DNA of 64,000 nucleotides from Janibacter cremeus. Lineage in GTDB: Bacteria; Actinomycetota; Actinomycetes; Actinomycetales; Dermatophilaceae. The position numbers and the translations under genes are program-made. The notes beneath the pieces were generated by a model, which saw only the letters and a list, made by a program, of their open reading frames with translations, did not search any database and was not told the DNA's origin. Shown here piece by piece: positions 21,501 through 54,000 of this stretch. Location: contig NZ_JACCAE010000001.1 in NCBI RefSeq assembly GCF_013409205.1, forward strand, positions 2,790,001 to 2,854,000. Reading direction: 5' to 3'. Position 1 is the first letter of the stretch. The number at the start of each line of letters is the position of its first letter.

Positions 21501-21612
21501 CCCTGCATGGACGAGCGACTGGTCAGCCGCGTCGTCCTGCTATACCCCGAACCACGGCCGTGATGGTAGGAAGGGCAGGACACGGTTGTCGGTCGGGGGG
21601 GGGAAGAACGCC

Positions 21613-47065: not shown

Positions 47066-47605
47066 TCAGAAGCCGCTGTGCCCCAGGTGCGCCAGCGCCT
47101 GCTGGAGCAGCGCGCCGTGCCCTCCGGCCATCTCGGCCTGCAGACCGGTCTCGCCGGCCTCCTCCGGCGTGAGCCACGCGAGGTCGAGGGCGTCCTGCTG
47201 CGGGGCGCAGTCACCGCGTACCGGCACGATGTAGCTCAGCGCGACCGCGTGCTGGCGCGGGTCGTGGAAGGGCGTGACCCCCGGCGTGGGGAAGAACTCC
47301 GCGACGGTGAAGGGCACCGGTGATGCGGGCACCGACGGCAGGGCCATCGGTCCGAGGTCCTTCTCGAGGTGACGCACGAGGGCGTCGCGCACCTGCTCGT
47401 GGTAGTTGACCCGCCCGGCGATCAGCTCACGATCCATCGTCCCCGTGTCCGAGGCCCGTAGGAGTAGCCCGACGCGGGTCACCGAGCCGTTGTCGGCCAC
47501 GCGCACGGGGACGGCCGCGACGTAGAGGATGGGCACCCGTCCGCGGATGTTGTCCAGGTCCTCGCGGCTGAGCCACGCTTCATGTCGGTCGAGGTCCGTC
47601 GGCAT
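47066..47605 (-). CDS. NUDIX-hydrolase-like protein (DUF4916 type)
   Basis: About 179 aa. The protein resembles actinobacterial DUF4916/NUDIX-family members: WLSREDLDNIRGRVPILYV near the start and HAVALSYIVPVRG, EALDLAWLTPEEA-like (here DALDLAWLTPEEA) towards the end. The canonical Nudix box GX5EX7REUXEEXGU is not clear, so hydrolase activity is doubtful. ATG at 47605; a GTG at 47626 is alternative. Convergent with the acyltransferase gene. Confidence 0.78.
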   Translation of the reverse strand: MPTDLDRHEAWLSREDLDNIRGRVPILYVAAVPVRVADNGSVTRVGLLLRASDTGTMDRELIAGRVNYHEQVRDALVRHLEKDLGPMALPSVPASPVPFTVAEFFPTPGVTPFHDPRQHAVALSYIVPVRGDCAPQQDALDLAWLTPEEAGETGLQAEMAGGHGALLQQALAHLGHSGF

Positions 47606-47666
47606 GGTCGCGATTCTCGCAGACACCGCAGTTGTGTGCTTCGCGTGGGCCCCGGTGGGAAGGCCG

Positions 47667-48446
47667 TCACCGTGGGGAGAAGGAGGCCCGGCGGGCGGAG
47701 CGGCGCAGTGCGGCGAGGATCGGCCGCCCGGTGAGGGAGATGAGCACGACGTTCGTCAGTGACCGCCCGAGGTCCCACCCCAGTGAGGTGGCGAGCGAGA
47801 AGGCGAAGAAGCGGGTCAGGTTCTCCCGCACCGGATCACCGGGGACGAAGGAGAGCGACTCCTCGCCCTGGACGGTGAAGGGCCAGAAGGAGAAGTTCAG
47901 TGCGACGCCGTAGAGCAGACCCGTGACGGCCCCGTAGGTGCAGAGCAGGGCGATCTCGCCCGCCCCGCGCAGGCGCGGGAGCATCCCTGCCCCGAGACCG
48001 ACCCACGCCGCAGCCAGCATCTGGAAGGGCAGCCACGGCCCGACGCCGGCCGTGAGCAGGGCGCTCGATGCCAGCGTCGTCGCGCCGAGGATGAAGCCGA
48101 ACCCCGGCCCGAAGACCCGTCCGGCGAGGATGAGCAGGAAGAAGACCGTCTCGAGGCCGGCGGTGCCCGCCCCGAGGGGGCGCAGGGCGGCACCGACCGC
48201 AGAGAGCACCCCGAGCATCGCCACCGCCTTCGTGTCCAGTCCGCCGTCGCTGACCTCTGCGAGGACGACCGCGAGGACACCGACGAGGATTCCGGCGAAT
48301 ACGAGCGGAGCATCGCCGGAGTGGGCCAGTGCCGCATCCTCGGAGATGAACAGGGGCCAGAGGAAGGCGACGATCCCGGCCACGCTGGTCAGGCCGATCG
48401 CGACCAGTGCTCGGGGGCGCAACTCGATCGCCGTCGAGCGACTCAT
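47667..48446 (-). CDS. ECF transporter S component (predicted cobalamin)
   Basis: Substrate-binding membrane subunit, 259 aa, with about six TM helices and a GRVFGPGFGFILGATTLASS-type segment (core FGPGFGFILGA) plus AAWVGLGAGMLPR, as in ECF S components of the CbrT/ThiW-like class. Substrate is inferred as vitamin B12 because the operon starts at a cobalamin riboswitch. Its ATG overlaps the ATPase stop (ATGA). Last gene of the five-gene operon. Confidence 0.85.
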   Translation of the reverse strand: MSRSTAIELRPRALVAIGLTSVAGIVAFLWPLFISEDAALAHSGDAPLVFAGILVGVLAVVLAEVSDGGLDTKAVAMLGVLSAVGAALRPLGAGTAGLETVFFLLILAGRVFGPGFGFILGATTLASSALLTAGVGPWLPFQMLAAAWVGLGAGMLPRLRGAGEIALLCTYGAVTGLLYGVALNFSFWPFTVQGEESLSFVPGDPVRENLTRFFAFSLATSLGWDLGRSLTNVVLISLTGRPILAALRRSARRASFSPR

Positions 48447-50099
48447 GAGAGGTTCCCTTCGCCCGTCCGCCGTGCGGCCAGCGCGGCCCGGACGTCATCC
48501 ACGGTGAGCAGCGGCGCGGGCGCGAGGACCTTGGCGACCTGTGGGGCGAAGGCGGGGGAGGAGACGACGACCTCGGCCGTCGCGCCGTCGGTGATGACCT
48601 CACCGTCGGCCATGATGACGACTCGGTCGGCGGCCTCGGCGACGAACTCCACGTCGTGGGTCGACAGCAGGACCGTGCGTCCGCGGGCGGCGAGGCCCTG
48701 CAGGGCCCGGTGCAGCGCACTCTTGGCGGTGTAGTCCAGGCCTCGGGTCGGCTCGTCGAGCAGGAGAACCGGGGGGGTCGGCTGTGAGCTGGACGGCCAG
48801 CACGAGGGCCAGTCGCTGCCCCTCCGACAGGTCGCGCGGGTGCCGATCGGTGGGGATGCCCGGTGCGATCTGCTCGAGCAGATCGGCGCAGGTGCCGTCG
48901 GTGACCGCGGAGTCGGCATCGGCACGCGCGCACTCCGCGCCCACCGTCTCGAGATAGAGCAGGTCACTGGCCGTCTGGGGCACCAGCCCCACCAGCTCGC
49001 GGCGCTCGGCCGGCTTGAGCTGTGCTGGGTCGAGGTCGCCCTCCGGGGCCGTGACGGACACGGTGCCCCGGGTCCGGGCCCCGGAGCCCTGCAGAGCCCA
49101 CAACAGGGAGGACTTGCCGGCCCCGTTGCGGCCCATGAGTGCGGTGATCGTCCCGGGCCGCAGCGCCAGGTCGATGTCGTCGACGGCGACCAGCCGTCCG
49201 TGGGTGACGGTGACCCCCTTCGCCTCGAGACCACCGGACCGAGCCGGCGGGGGAGTGGGGGGCGCCACCTCACCGAGCTGACGGCGCAGCGGCCCGGCAG
49301 CCCGGCGAGCATCCCGCACGGACAGGGGCAACGGGGACCAGTGCTCCAGCCGCCCCAGGTCGACCACGGGCGGCGCGACGCTCGAGCGCGCCATGATCTG
49401 CGCCGGGCTGCCGTGCTCGACGCGTCCGTCGGCGACGTGGACGACGGAGTCGGCGTGGTGGATGACGCGCTCGATCCGGTGCTCCGCGACGACGACGGTC
49501 GTCGACAGGTCGTGCACGAGTCTGGAGATCGCGGCGAGCACGTCCTCCGCGGCCGTCGGGTCGAGTGCGGACGTCGGCTCGTCGAGCACGATGATCTGGG
49601 GGTGCTGGGTCAGCACGGAGCCGATGGCCACCCGCTGCTGCTGGCCCCCCGAGAGGTCGCGCAGCGGCGCATCGCGCAGCTCTGCGATGTCCATGACGTC
49701 CAGGACTTCCTCGACCCGGCGGCGCATCGTCGCGGGCGGCAGGCCGAGCTGCTCCATGCCGTAGGCCAGCTCGGTCTCCACGTGCTCGGTGACGAATCCG
49801 GCGAGCGGGTCCTGCCCGACGACCCCCACGACATCCGCGAGGTCGCGCGGGCGGTGGGTGGCGGTGTCCCGTCCCGCGACGAGCACGCGACCGTCGAGGT
49901 GGCCGCCGGTGAAGTGCGGCACGAGGCCGTTGATCGCCTGCAGCAGCGTCGACTTGCCGGAGCCGGTCCGGCCGATGACGAGGACGAGCTCGCCCTCCTC
50001 GACCGCCATGTCGACCCCGGTCAGCGCCGGGGTGGCGGCACCGTCGTAGGTGATCGTCACGTCCTCGAAGAGGATCGAGTGGTCCGGCGCCCAGGTCAT
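48443..50099 (-). pseudogene. ECF transporter double ATPase (A-A' fusion), frameshifted in a homopolymer
   Basis: Two ABC ATPase domains in one chain, energising the ECF transporter. Domain 1: Walker A GRTGSGKST, signature LSGGQQQRVAIG, Walker B IIVLDEPTSALD. Domain 2: Walker A GRNGAGKSS, signature LSEGQRLALVLA. Then the frame breaks: 7 Gs at 48771-48777 (plus strand) shift reading by one, and the Walker B PVLLLDEPTRGLD, the H-loop STHD and the rest continue in another frame to 48443. Deleting one G gives a normal protein of about 551 aa. Whether this is a sequencing error, a genuine null or a slippage site cannot be told here. Both ends overlap neighbours by 4 nt. Confidence 0.85.
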
Positions 50100-51232
50100 G
50101 CCGGACTCCCTTCGCTCTCGCAGGGGTCCACGCGGCGTCGCGGCCGGTCACGCACCCGGGCCAGCGGGGGTGGTGGGGTGAGCACTGCGGGGAGTGCGGC
50201 GACGAGCAGGCCGGCAGTCATCAGCCACGGCAGTGGTGGTGGCCCGATGGGGTTCAACGGCATCGTCAGCGCACTCGGCTCGCACCTCAGGCTGGCGAAG
50301 GCGGCGGCTGCGGCGAGCAGCCCGCAGGCCGCGGTGAGAGTCTCCGGCGCCCGCCACGGTGACGGGCGGTACACCGTGCGGGAGACGGCCTTCGAGCCGA
50401 GGGCCAGGCCCAGGCCGCCGAGGCCGATGCCGACGAGGAGGAGCGGAAGGCCGACCCAGTCCGGGCTCTCCCGGTCGAGCAGGCCATAGCTGCCGACGGA
50501 CATCCCGAGCAGGCCGCCGAGGGTGAAGATCCCGGTCAGATGGTCCTGACCGCGCGAGACCTCACCTCGTCGCCCGTACCCACGGGAGTCCATCGACGCG
50601 GCCAGGGCCATGGACCGTTCGAGGGTGTCCTCGAGGACGGGCATCGCGACGCGGCGAAACGCGCGCAGTCCGCGGGCGGAGTCCCCGCGCAGCAGGCGTG
50701 CCCGATGCACCCGCTTGACCGACTGGGCCAGCTGCGGGGCGACGCTGATCGCGACGATGACGGCCGTGCCGATCTCCTGCAGGGCACCGGGCAGGGCGGC
50801 GAGCATCCGCTTCGGGTCGGCCAGCGCATTCGCCGCACCGACACACAGGATCATCGTGGCCAGCCGCATGCCTTCGAAGACCGCGGCGAGCAGACCCTCG
50901 AGGCCGACGTCACCGAGCAGGTTGATACCCGAAGCCCAGCTGGGCAGCTCGATCAGCGGCAGCGGCAGGATCGTGATCTCGCCCCACTTCAGGCCGACGA
51001 GGACGTGCAGGATGACGCGCAGTCCGATGATGAAGGCCCCGAGGACGGCGTAGAGCTTGAATGCGCGGGCCCACGGGGAGTCCGAGCGCCGACTGACCAC
51101 GACGAAGGTGACCACCCCGGCCGCGATGAGCAGCACGAGCGGGTTGGTCGTCTGCGACACCGCCACTGCGAGTCCGATGGCCCAGAGCCACCAGGCCCCG
51201 GGGTGCAGCGCTCGGGGGGTCGACGAGGACAC
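50096..51232 (-). CDS. ECF transporter T component (CbiQ family)
   Basis: Membrane-coupling subunit, 378 aa, with N-terminal TM helices, a cytosolic coupling helix region, and further TM helices. EcfT features: the RARLLRGD and SMDSRGYGRR motifs (Arg-Gly signatures that contact the ATPases) and PQLAQSVKRVHRAR. The C-terminal ~130 residues add extra TM helices not usual in short CbiQ proteins. GTG at 51232 is 8 bp after the DUF4430 gene; stop overlaps the ATPase ATG (ATGA). Confidence 0.9.
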   Translation of the reverse strand: MSSSTPRALHPGAWWLWAIGLAVAVSQTTNPLVLLIAAGVVTFVVVSRRSDSPWARAFKLYAVLGAFIIGLRVILHVLVGLKWGEITILPLPLIELPSWASGINLLGDVGLEGLLAAVFEGMRLATMILCVGAANALADPKRMLAALPGALQEIGTAVIVAISVAPQLAQSVKRVHRARLLRGDSARGLRAFRRVAMPVLEDTLERSMALAASMDSRGYGRRGEVSRGQDHLTGIFTLGGLLGMSVGSYGLLDRESPDWVGLPLLLVGIGLGGLGLALGSKAVSRTVYRPSPWRAPETLTAACGLLAAAAAFASLRCEPSALTMPLNPIGPPPLPWLMTAGLLVAALPAVLTPPPPLARVRDRPRRRVDPCESEGSPA

Positions 51233-51240
51233 GAAGAGGG

Positions 51241-52212
51241 TCAGGCTCCGCGTCGTCGGGCCACCACGAGGGCAGCTCCGCCCAGGGGGACCAGCAGAGC
51301 GACGCCGACGAGGGTCGGCACGAGGGCGCCGCCACCGTCATCGGCTGAGTCGGACGTGCTGGATGCGTTCGCGGTGTCGGTGGGGTCGCCACCGGAGGTC
51401 GAGGACTCGCTGGCCGCGGTGGTGCTCGACGACGAACTCGTGCTGCTCTTCTCGGCCTTCTTTTTCTTCTTCTCGTCGGCCTTCTTCTTGGCTTCAGCCT
51501 TCTTCTTCTTGGCCTGGGATGTGCTCGACGCGCTGGCGTCCTTGGACGCACTCGAGGATGAGGCCGCCGGAGACGACGGCTTGGCGCCGTCCCCGCCCGA
51601 GGGCGTCGCTCCACCGGCGGCAGGTGAGCTGCTCGGCGCGCTCGACCCCGGGCCGTTTGATGACCCTGAGCCCTGTGTTGCCTTCGGCTTGGCGGGCGCC
51701 GAGGGCTTCGCCGGGGGACTCGGCTTGGGCTTGGGCTTGGGGTTTGTGCTCGGCTTGGGGGGTGCTGGAGCGGCCACCTTCGGAGGGGCGATGCTCGGCG
51801 CTCCTCCGGATCCCAGCTTGAAGCCGACGACCGTGCCCGGCGCAGGGTCATAGGCGTAGATTCCGGTGTTGGAGTAACTCCACGACCCGCCGGCCGGCGC
51901 GTGGAAAAAGGCCCAGTACTGGCTCTTCGGCGGCATTCGCACGCAGGGGGTGTCCGGCAGGCCGTTGATCTTGCAAACGGCGCCGGGCTGGGTCTGGACC
52001 TGCTCGACGGAGAAGCCGGCGGCTACCAGGGCGTCGCGGGCCGACGGGTGGTCGCCGGAGGCACACCGGACATCGGCGCCGGAACCGCTCTGGACGACGA
52101 CGGTCACGCCGCTCGTACCGGTGCAGGCCGCCGCCTGGGCCGGGGCGGTCATGGACAGACCGCCCCCGGCCAGCAGGGTGGCCAGGCCCAGACGAGCGAC
52201 GAGACGGCGCAT
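51241..52212 (-). CDS. Secreted DUF4430 protein (transcobalamin C-terminal-domain-like), membrane-anchored
   Basis: 323 aa. Signal peptide (cleavage near APAQA|AAC), then a DUF4430-like domain of about 100 residues (SGVTVVVQSGSG, DALVAAGFSVEQVQT, YWAFFHAPAGGSWSYSNTG), the fold of the C-terminal beta domain of vertebrate transcobalamin and intrinsic factor. A long Pro/Lys/Ser/Ala spacer with a Lys-rich segment (KKKKAEAKKKADEKKKKK) leads to a C-terminal TM helix and RRRGA tail, so it is displayed on the surface. No LPxTG motif. ATG at 52212 overlaps the preceding stop (TGATG). Confidence 0.85.
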   Translation of the reverse strand: MRRLVARLGLATLLAGGGLSMTAPAQAAACTGTSGVTVVVQSGSGADVRCASGDHPSARDALVAAGFSVEQVQTQPGAVCKINGLPDTPCVRMPPKSQYWAFFHAPAGGSWSYSNTGIYAYDPAPGTVVGFKLGSGGAPSIAPPKVAAPAPPKPSTNPKPKPKPSPPAKPSAPAKPKATQGSGSSNGPGSSAPSSSPAAGGATPSGGDGAKPSSPAASSSSASKDASASSTSQAKKKKAEAKKKADEKKKKKAEKSSTSSSSSTTAASESSTSGGDPTDTANASSTSDSADDGGGALVPTLVGVALLVPLGGAALVVARRRGA

Positions 52213-53507
52213 CAGTGGCGCTGCTCGGCCAGACGCCGACGGGCCACGAGAATGGCGCCTGCGGCCAGGACGCCGAGACCGGCGCCCCCGAGAAGCATCG
52301 GGGTGCTGGAGCCCGCAGCGGAGCCACCGTCGGTCTGCACGACTCCCGGACGGACCGGGGCGCTCGCGTCGTCGCTCTGGCCGTCGTCGCCCGTCTGCTC
52401 GGCCTCGTCCGTGGGCTCGGAGGTGCCTGGCTCGGGGTCGGTCGGGGTCGAGGCGCTGTCACAGTCGATCACCGGGGTCGCGGCGGCTTGACCCTCGTTC
52501 GTGACCGCGGCGTAGGACGTCCCGGTCACGCCGATGAGTGCCTGCGCCGTGGCGCGGGTCGTGATCGCGTCGGACTCGGAGTCGGCCCCCATCGCGTCGA
52601 AGGAGGCCTGGTCGTAGGCGATACCGCCGGCAACCTGAGGGGTCTCGCAGCCGAGTGTCAGCGACTCGAGGTAGCCGAGGGCCTTGCTGCGAGCCGCGTC
52701 GCGGCCGGCCAGGCCGAAGGCCACGGACGCCAGGCCGGTGCTGTTGGCGTTGCTCGCCTCAGTCGACGTGCCGCCGCCGACACCGCCGGCACCGTCCTGG
52801 TTGTCCTCGAGGAAGGTTGCCGCGGACTGCACCTCGGTGTCGTGGCCCCCGACGGCATCGAGAGCCTGGACGGCGAGGGAGGTCGCGTCCGGGTCGGAGA
52901 CGCATTCCACGCCCTCTTCGCCTTCGTCCGGGTAGTCGAGGACGAAGCCACCGTCAGAGCACTGCTGGGACAGCAGGCTCTCGACGGACTCGGTCGAGGG
53001 GTTGACCCCCGCGCGCTTCAGACCGATGAGGCCGAAGGACTGGCCGAGGGTGTTGGAGAAGTCGCCGTACTCGGACTGGTCGGTGAACTGGCCGTTGGCC
53101 TGCTCGAGACCCTGCAGCTGCGCGACGAGGTCGACCCCGTTGACGTCCTTCGGGTTGAGGCCGCGGGCGCCGGTGAAGGTGAGCATCTTGCCGGTGGCCG
53201 AGGCGTAGATCTCGTCACCGGCGCCGGTGTACGCAGTCACGTTTGCGACGAGGTAGTCAGCGGCGGCGGCCGAGGCGTCGCCACCGGTGCCGGCCGCGGT
53301 CATCCCGAGGACGGCATCGATCGTCAGTCCGAGGTCGTCGAAGGTCTGTCCGCCGCCTGAACCCGTGAGTCGGTCGCCGCCGGCCTCGAGCTCAGCGGCG
53401 AGGTAGGCGACGGAGTCGTCCGGGCTGGCCGCGGACGCGGCCGGGGCGAGCGCCAGGCCCACGACGCCGATGGAGGCGGTGAGGGCCAGGGTGGGCAGAG
53501 AACGCAT
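52212..53507 (-). CDS. Secreted alpha-barrel protein (prenyltransferase/intrinsic-factor-like fold), membrane-anchored
   Basis: 431 aa. Signal peptide (cleavage near AASA|AS), about 320 residues of helical repeats with [24 protein letters not shown] and [12 protein letters not shown] motifs, resembling the alpha6/alpha6 barrel of squalene/prenyltransferases and of the N-terminal domain of cobalamin-binding transcobalamin and intrinsic factor. Then an acidic Thr/Asp/Pro linker, a TM helix ([20 protein letters not shown]) and a basic tail RRRLAEQRH. First gene behind the cobalamin riboswitch. B12 binding is inferred from context. Confidence 0.85.
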
Positions 53508-53509
53508 GT

Positions 53510-53551
53510 CGCGACCTTTCGAGCTGGGACTGGTGCCTACACCCGGTCGCG
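53510..53551 (-). promoter_or_regulatory. RBS-sequestering hairpin downstream of the cobalamin riboswitch
   Basis: On the minus-strand RNA, CGCGACC (complement of 53545-53551) can pair with GGTCGCG (complement of 53510-53516). The second arm overlaps the GAAAGG Shine-Dalgarno region just ahead of the ATG at 53507. This would let the riboswitch control translation, with no U-tract terminator required. Confidence 0.5.
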
Positions 53552-53574
53552 GTCTGCGTCGGGCTCGACCCGCT

Positions 53575-53720
53575 GTCCTCGACGGGTTGTGGTGGAGCCT
53601 CGCGTCGACTCAGGTTTTCCGACTCGCCCGGTGGGCTCACGGTTGCGGGACAGCGCCGGAATTCCACCGGCTTCCCCTGAGGCGCGCGACTGCCTCGCGG
53701 CAGTGCTGGGCCTCATCGTA
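53575..53720 (-). promoter_or_regulatory. Cobalamin (AdoCbl) riboswitch
   Basis: Conserved core elements occur in order on the minus strand: GGTGGAATTCC (53658-53668), CTGTCCCGCAACC (ending 53641), GTGAGCCC, and GAGTCGGAAAACC (53613-53625), followed by CCTGAG that can pair with upstream CTCAGG. These are the defining motifs of B12 riboswitches. A TACGAT -10-like hexamer lies at 53715-53720. It precedes the alpha-barrel gene and thus the whole ECF operon, which is expected to be shut off when B12 is plentiful. Confidence 0.93.
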
Positions 53721-53786: not shown

Positions 53787-54000
53787 TACACTGGTGACCA
53801 CAGGCGTTCGAGCCGTCATCAGCGGCGAGCCTTCCGGAAGAACGGGTGCTGGGCAGCCCAGCAGCACACGCACCTCACTAGACCCGGACGGATGGTCACG
53901 TCACGACCGATCGACCAAGAGCGGTCTCCTCCCTTCGCGCGAAGGGGGTGGACAAGCGGGGTGGTACCGCGGTGGCCGAGCCATCGTCCTCGTGGCAGAC
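53787..54000 (+). promoter_or_regulatory. T-box leader of ileS (isoleucine-specific)
   Basis: The T-box core GGGGTGGTACCGCGG is at 53958-53972. The specifier ATC (Ile) is at 53818-53820 inside a GAGCCGTC/GGCGAGCC stem and is followed by a purine, as required. A stem II-like GTGCTGGG/CCCAGCAG pair and a CCCTTCGC/GCGAAGGG palindrome (53931-53946) lie between. No U tract follows, so control is probably translational, as in other actinobacterial ileS leaders. A TACACT -10-like element starts at 53787. Confidence 0.9.

Follow-up and report, generated by a model that had tools for sequence, protein, structure and literature searches.

A widespread actinobacterial pair of predicted secreted proteins, a toroid and a transcobalamin-beta-like domain, linked to B12 riboswitches and an ECF transporter

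How vitamin B12 is picked up at the surface of Gram-positive bacteria is poorly known. The closest described candidates come from the study in which Burroughs, Balaji, Iyer, and Aravind defined the SLBB superfamily (2007; PMC1796856). In its account of the bacterial members, toroid and SLBB domains are fused in both orders, secreted and anchored SLBB/toroid proteins are encoded in operons with CbiO and CbiQ, and B12 scavenging is proposed as their role; the hosts of this clade are given there as low-GC Gram-positives, planctomycetes and, less often, euryarchaea. A surface protein that likewise captures B12 ahead of a transporter is described for BtuB/BtuG of Bacteroides (PMC6143338; PMC10404256). 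The operon considered here, from a 64,000-nucleotide (nt) window of the Janibacter cremeus genome (contig NZ_JACCAE010000001.1, positions 2,790,001 to 2,854,000), places two genes behind a cobalamin riboswitch and ahead of the genes of an energy-coupling factor (ECF) transporter. The first, P1, encodes a predicted secreted alpha/alpha-toroid protein, and the second, P2, a predicted secreted protein with an SLBB-type domain (Table 1). The P1-P2 pair is real, widespread, linked to B12 riboswitches and accompanied by an ECF transporter, and corrinoid capture and import is its most likely role.

An earlier note on this DNA had read, from the sequence alone, a cobalamin riboswitch ahead of five genes on one strand. 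The riboswitch scores above its Rfam gathering threshold and precedes P1-P2-EcfT-EcfA-S, all on the minus strand. The close joins given there were likewise recovered, as a 1-nt overlap at P1/P2 and 4-nt overlaps at EcfT/EcfA and EcfA/S; P2 and EcfT are instead separated by 8 nt. In translation, both P1 and P2 open with a signal-peptide-like stretch and carry at the C-terminus a hydrophobic stretch and then RRR, in agreement with the secreted, C-terminally anchored proteins that the note had read there; both appear to be exported and tethered via their hydrophobic tails. Because gene order and upstream riboswitches are conserved in relatives, the arrangement is far from chance.

Two partly overlapping sets of relatives bear on this conservation. 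The first comprises 59 loci from order-wide and phylum-wide samples. The second comprises 34 named loci from, among others, Janibacter, Knoellia, Phycicoccus, Pedococcus, Micromonospora, Actinokineospora, Kitasatospora, Streptomyces and Aeromicrobium; these were found by patterns taken from close relatives and therefore favour close relatives. Since the sets overlap, the contigs of L079 and L143 being equally long at 273001, their counts are not added together. In 29 of the 34 named loci P1 precedes P2 by no more than 1,200 nt, and T, A and S are all present in 26 of the 34. Among the sampled loci, P2 was recognized by profile in 58/59, P1 stood upstream in 35/59, and T, A and S were found in 47/59. 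Riboswitches were counted where they exceeded the Rfam gathering score and lay directly upstream on the same strand, sub-threshold ones not being sought; for this reason L155 and L159, with a riboswitch on the other strand only, do not count. By this measure a riboswitch heads 24 of the 59 sampled and 22 of the 34 named loci (RF00174, or RF01689 in L087, L088 and L089), always 60-507 nt ahead of the first P1 or P2 domain match. For comparison, the window's genome has five such riboswitches in 3.3 Mb, and they are present in 129 of 149 phylum-sample genomes. The possibility raised in the earlier note, that homologues occur mainly without B12 riboswitches, is not what these counts show, although in about half of the sampled loci no riboswitch was detected. 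In more distant riboswitch-headed operons a canonical DUF4430 protein is encoded alongside a toroid and a double ABC ATPase (L175, L178), and a beta-propeller gene (PQQ_2 plus DUF5719) is added in L175 (1074-4799, genome G112) and in L176 (1449-4124, genome G079), the latter also containing CbiQ.

The core unit of these loci is the P1-P2 pair itself, as its own riboswitch in places with no ECF genes nearby, its paired duplication and its fusions show. In L166, L167, L169 and L171 the pair and a riboswitch are present and no same-strand match to T, A or S occurs in the 5.3-6.0 kb of downstream sequence available. Eight loci carry two P1-P2 pairs, and in L157 two pairs have one riboswitch each. 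Mean identity among first copies is 0.81 for P1 and 0.88 for P2, and among second copies 0.70 and 0.80; between first and second copies it is much lower, 0.39 and 0.56, and the pair therefore diverged as a unit. Over 37 pairs, P1 and P2 distances correlate with r 0.90, a value that none of 1000 permutations reached and to which shared ancestry contributes. In four proteins (P0088, P0092, P0103 and P0241) an SLBB domain is followed by a toroid on one chain, and P0241 aligns across both parts. A further apparent fusion, P0205, was not counted: its P2 signal peptide lies in mid-protein, which looks like a frameshift artefact. In Actinokineospora, two P2-type domains lie close together behind P1 (L164 5995-6803; L165 6007-6803).

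The structure model of the P2 domain predicts a beta-grasp fold closest to the beta domain of transcobalamin and intrinsic factor. In its secondary structure, short strands at residues 44-46 and 54-57 follow a helix at 33-39 and would form an inserted beta-hairpin; such an insert following the helix is given as a trait of the transcobalamin-like clade in the SLBB survey's description of that clade (PMC1796856). Residues 26-140 as query returned 249 homologues at E <= 1e-3, and in precomputed annotation many relatives of P2 carry PF28005 of Pfam. P2 barely matches the NCBIfam family SCO2322 (17.3 bits against a cut-off of 85), searches of PDB sequences with P2 and with its profile gave nothing useful, and with the DUF4430 model PF14478 no member of a diverse set of 23 P2 domains was found at E <= 1. 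The relationship of P2 to DUF4430 is visible by predicted structure and weakly by profile comparison. Of the earlier description of P2 as a DUF4430 protein, the Pfam assignment falls away and the transcobalamin-beta-like fold is retained, as a prediction of the structure model that had been suggested as a check.

P1 presents a less specific picture. A profile of its family matches solved toroids, among them squalene-hopene cyclase at 6.2e-21, and the structure model of a fused relative folds as a toroid; in a Foldseek search with this relative, transcobalamin and haptocorrin appear at ranks 32-43, with terpene cyclases higher. Among the 50 VIA rows listed for the fused model transcobalamin does not appear, a missing row that proves nothing. 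Of the alignments, A8 was folded; A3, A7 and A10 placed SLBB rows onto the toroid and were left unfolded. P1 itself is unmatched in Pfam, a PDB search with its single sequence gave nothing useful, its match to the NCBIfam family SCO2321_fam (3.4e-32, 111.8 bits) is below the cut-off of 300, and its nearest named homologues are Janibacter proteins. On the profile and the model, P1 is a predicted alpha/alpha toroid of generic fold that does not look specifically transcobalamin-like, so that the barrel proposed earlier as one half of a transcobalamin survives as a toroid, with a weakened case for a transcobalamin-specific identity.

The operon encodes an ECF transporter with a dedicated set of T, A, A' and S: a CbiQ-like T, two ATPase domains and an S component stand together in it. 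By Pfam, EcfT belongs to the CbiQ family and EcfA contains two ABC_tran stretches. S scores 28.2 bits against ECF_trnsprt (PF12822), short of the cut-off of 30.7, and this family is found at E <= 1e-3 in 31 of 41 operon homologues of S. Neither the single S sequence nor its 41-row profile matched a PDB sequence, and these searches gave no sequence link to any solved S component. The double ATPase of the earlier note holds for its two domains and not for one intact frame: the frame shifts at a seven-G run inside the second ATPase domain, which is divided over the open reading frames 48600-50099 and 48443-49312. Of five relatives tried, the surrounding motif was located in three, L143, L144 and L145, and in these the frame is intact. 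The sole other homopolymer of at least seven bases in the window is a G9 run at 21595-21603.

The host genome, 3.3 Mb in one contig, places further corrinoid genes under riboswitches. One riboswitch precedes cobN (TIGR02257), behind which comes a BluB-CobT fusion, and another heads a putative cobaltochelatase and then cobA. Because cobN, the BluB-CobT fusion and cobA are present, the host is probably a B12 producer, one that would also salvage corrinoid. A riboswitch at G000:C1:1857587-1857784 (L139 4588-4785) heads an ATP-binding cassette (ABC) importer resembling BtuC, whose binding protein and permease match 'putative F420-0 transporter' families; control by the riboswitch suggests that its substrate is a corrinoid instead. 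A 90.8-bit B12 riboswitch at G000:C1:1446819-1446994 on the minus strand (L138 4820-4995) is separated by about 44 nt from a downstream gene (L138 3940-4776) with a weak match to the siderophore-iron reductase FhuF (7.5e-10, below cut-off), possibly a corrinoid reductase.

Taken together, we consider it fairly probable that P1 and P2 bind an extracellular corrinoid, B12 or a related compound, and deliver it to the adjoining ECF transporter. Riboswitches of the RF00174 family permit expression of the genes behind them when intracellular cobalamin is low, and the operon would be expressed under that condition. The P2 domain would take the corrinoid first, and the P1 toroid, where present, would close over its other face, much like the paired domains of transcobalamin. 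From P1 and P2 the ligand would pass to the S component, with import powered by EcfT and the two ATPase domains, as expected of the ECF class. In lineages that lack P1, P2 alone would have to suffice. A two-chain corrinoid clamp by P1 and P2 is plausible by analogy, because the alpha and beta domains of human transcobalamin, when made separately, are described as assembling only upon addition of cobalamin, with the beta domain alone binding cobalamin (PMC5599065). More tentative, and in our judgement short of probable, is an actinobacterial split transcobalamin in the full sense, in which the corrinoid clamps two tethered surface proteins together, the pair docks on S, and assembly serves as both high-affinity trap and delivery signal.

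Several observations weigh against capture and import by the P1-P2 pair. Foldseek returned no match to the P2 domain at E <= 0.001 (best 2.3e-3), no Pfam family, DUF4430 (PF14478) included, matches P2, and profile-profile comparison with canonical DUF4430 reached probabilities of 73% and 51%. P1 is nearer to terpene cyclase toroids than to the transcobalamin alpha domain, and the fused-relative model, with a predicted template modelling score (pTM) of 0.60, says nothing firm about a clamp. An upstream riboswitch over the curated score is missing from 35/59 and 12/34 loci, EcfA is frameshifted in the window assembly, and the host carries cobN, the BluB-CobT fusion and cobA. Finally, in the order sample P2 occurs in 33 of 149 genomes, P1 at 1e-10 in 16 and both in 14, so that 19 of the 33 P2 genomes are without P1 at that threshold, with the proviso that the search scored part of the first-look candidates in sometimes incomplete genomes and may have missed some P1, and that P2 is unconfirmed in one of the 19 (G253, locus L110). 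In G102, G134 and G284 the P1 match and P2 lie on different contigs. A laxer P1 profile search, at 1e-3, had matched 66 of 149 phylum-sample genomes, many by anchor tails or generic toroids, and was set aside for the stricter one. The P1-less genomes mean that a two-part clamp is not obligatory and that P2 with the ECF transporter can evidently do without P1; the earlier idea of capture by two halves keeps the linkage of the pair and loses the necessity of the clamp. Together with the generic fold of P1 and the riboswitch-headed loci in which P1 is absent (8/24 sampled; 2/22 named), they speak for a reading in which P2 alone binds the corrinoid for the ECF transporter and P1 plays some other part, such as holding P2 in the wall, binding glycan or shielding the site. 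The adjacency, paired duplication and fusions of P1 and P2 speak against it, as does the usual position of the riboswitch ahead of P1 (16/24; 20/22), and we regard it as unlikely though deserving of weight.

That the operon has decayed in this strain, with a real break in EcfA and a non-working transporter, is compatible with any of these readings. The break sits within the second ATPase domain and the frame is whole in the three relatives named above, yet a homopolymer run is a usual site of sequencing indels and the remaining four genes are open, which makes decay rather improbable. Cobalt importers are often under B12-riboswitch control, and an ECF module importing cobalt for B12 synthesis, with P1 and P2 as accessories, would suit the CbiQ-like EcfT and a host that makes cobaltochelatase; but relatives of S match PF12822/PF07155 and no cobalt S family, the predicted fold of P2 is transcobalamin-like, and some pairs with a B12 riboswitch have no ECF genes nearby, so we consider cobalt import very improbable. 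A host with cobN, BluB-CobT and cobA, and with a second riboswitch-headed importer like the BtuC/'F420-0' families, could instead be a B12 producer salvaging a precursor or other cobamide, for example cobinamide. Nothing in the analysis separates corrinoids, and the beta domain of human transcobalamin is reported to bind cobalamin and cobinamide alike (PMC5599065); a ligand other than B12 is distinctly unlikely by our estimate. Corrinoid capture by P1 and P2 followed by ECF import accordingly remains the preferred reading.

Two neighbours complete the region around the features of Table 1. About 40 nt separate S from a downstream NUDIX/DUF4916 gene (window 47066-47626), also on the minus strand, and a weak T-box-like match (53816-53994, plus strand; 19.4 bits against a gathering score of 93, E 0.056) stands ahead of an ileS-like frame on the opposite strand from the operon.

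Table 1. The riboswitch, genes and selected sites of the operon, in window positions
Feature	Position	Strand	Remarks
Cobalamin riboswitch aptamer core, RF00174	53613-53676	-	Model positions 46-168; 41.5 bits vs gathering 31.5; E 4.6e-7 in window scan
P1, predicted secreted alpha/alpha-toroid protein, 431 aa	52212-53507	-	Signal-like N-terminus; C-terminal hydrophobic stretch + RRR
P2, predicted secreted protein, 323 aa	51241-52212	-	SLBB-type domain, Pro/Ser/Lys-rich linker, C-terminal hydrophobic stretch + RRR
P2 predicted transcobalamin-beta-like (SLBB) domain, residues 26-150	51763-52137	-	
EcfT, CbiQ family, 378 aa	50096-51232	-	PF02361 2.2e-11
EcfA, two ATPase domains, frame broken in assembly	48443-50099	-	ABC_tran + ECF_ATPase models
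Seven-base run (G on + strand), site of EcfA frame shift	48771-48777	-	
S component, 259 aa	47667-48446	-	PF12822 2.3e-6, below cut-off

The earlier note had proposed this operon as a Gram-positive route of surface capture for B12, an idea that was already predicted in 2007 (PMC1796856). With the bacterial SLBB systems of that prediction, as its description of them goes, the window operon shares secretion and anchors, a toroid with an SLBB domain, and a CbiO-like ATPase with a CbiQ-like membrane protein. What is new relative to it is that the toroid stands on its own chain and that the SLBB domain is too divergent for the standard Pfam DUF4430 model; the present system is moreover actinobacterial, tied to riboswitches and housed in a seemingly B12-making host, unlike those described there. 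In the open-licence literature, of which the listings are incomplete, no paper was found on the actinobacterial P1-P2 pair (under DUF4430, transcobalamin, ECF-cobalamin and SCO2321-SCO2325), no test of the 2007 prediction, and no useful listing of transcobalamin contact residues. With their ectodomains, riboswitch link, stand-alone pairs and natural fusions, the operon and its relatives make that prediction directly testable.

Among other systems, ECF-CbrT of Lactobacillus delbrueckii is likewise an ECF-type importer, for which B12 has been shown as substrate; it uses a shared module and has no known surface binder, unlike the window operon (PMC5997447). SCO2321 and SCO2322 of Streptomyces are NCBIfam families named without function, and Streptomyces-type homologues keep the order P1-P2-EcfT-A-S (L135-L137). 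The animal proteins transcobalamin, intrinsic factor and haptocorrin are single chains with the toroid before the beta domain, whereas the window system has two chains and the four bacterial fusions put SLBB first; the P1 toroid does not look specifically transcobalamin-like, and B12 binding is, for the window proteins, a prediction. BtuB/BtuG is a Gram-negative outer membrane system, with folds unrelated to those of P1 and P2. If the favoured reading is true, actinobacteria, including relatives of Streptomyces and Micromonospora, share the two-domain trick of animals, played on two chains.

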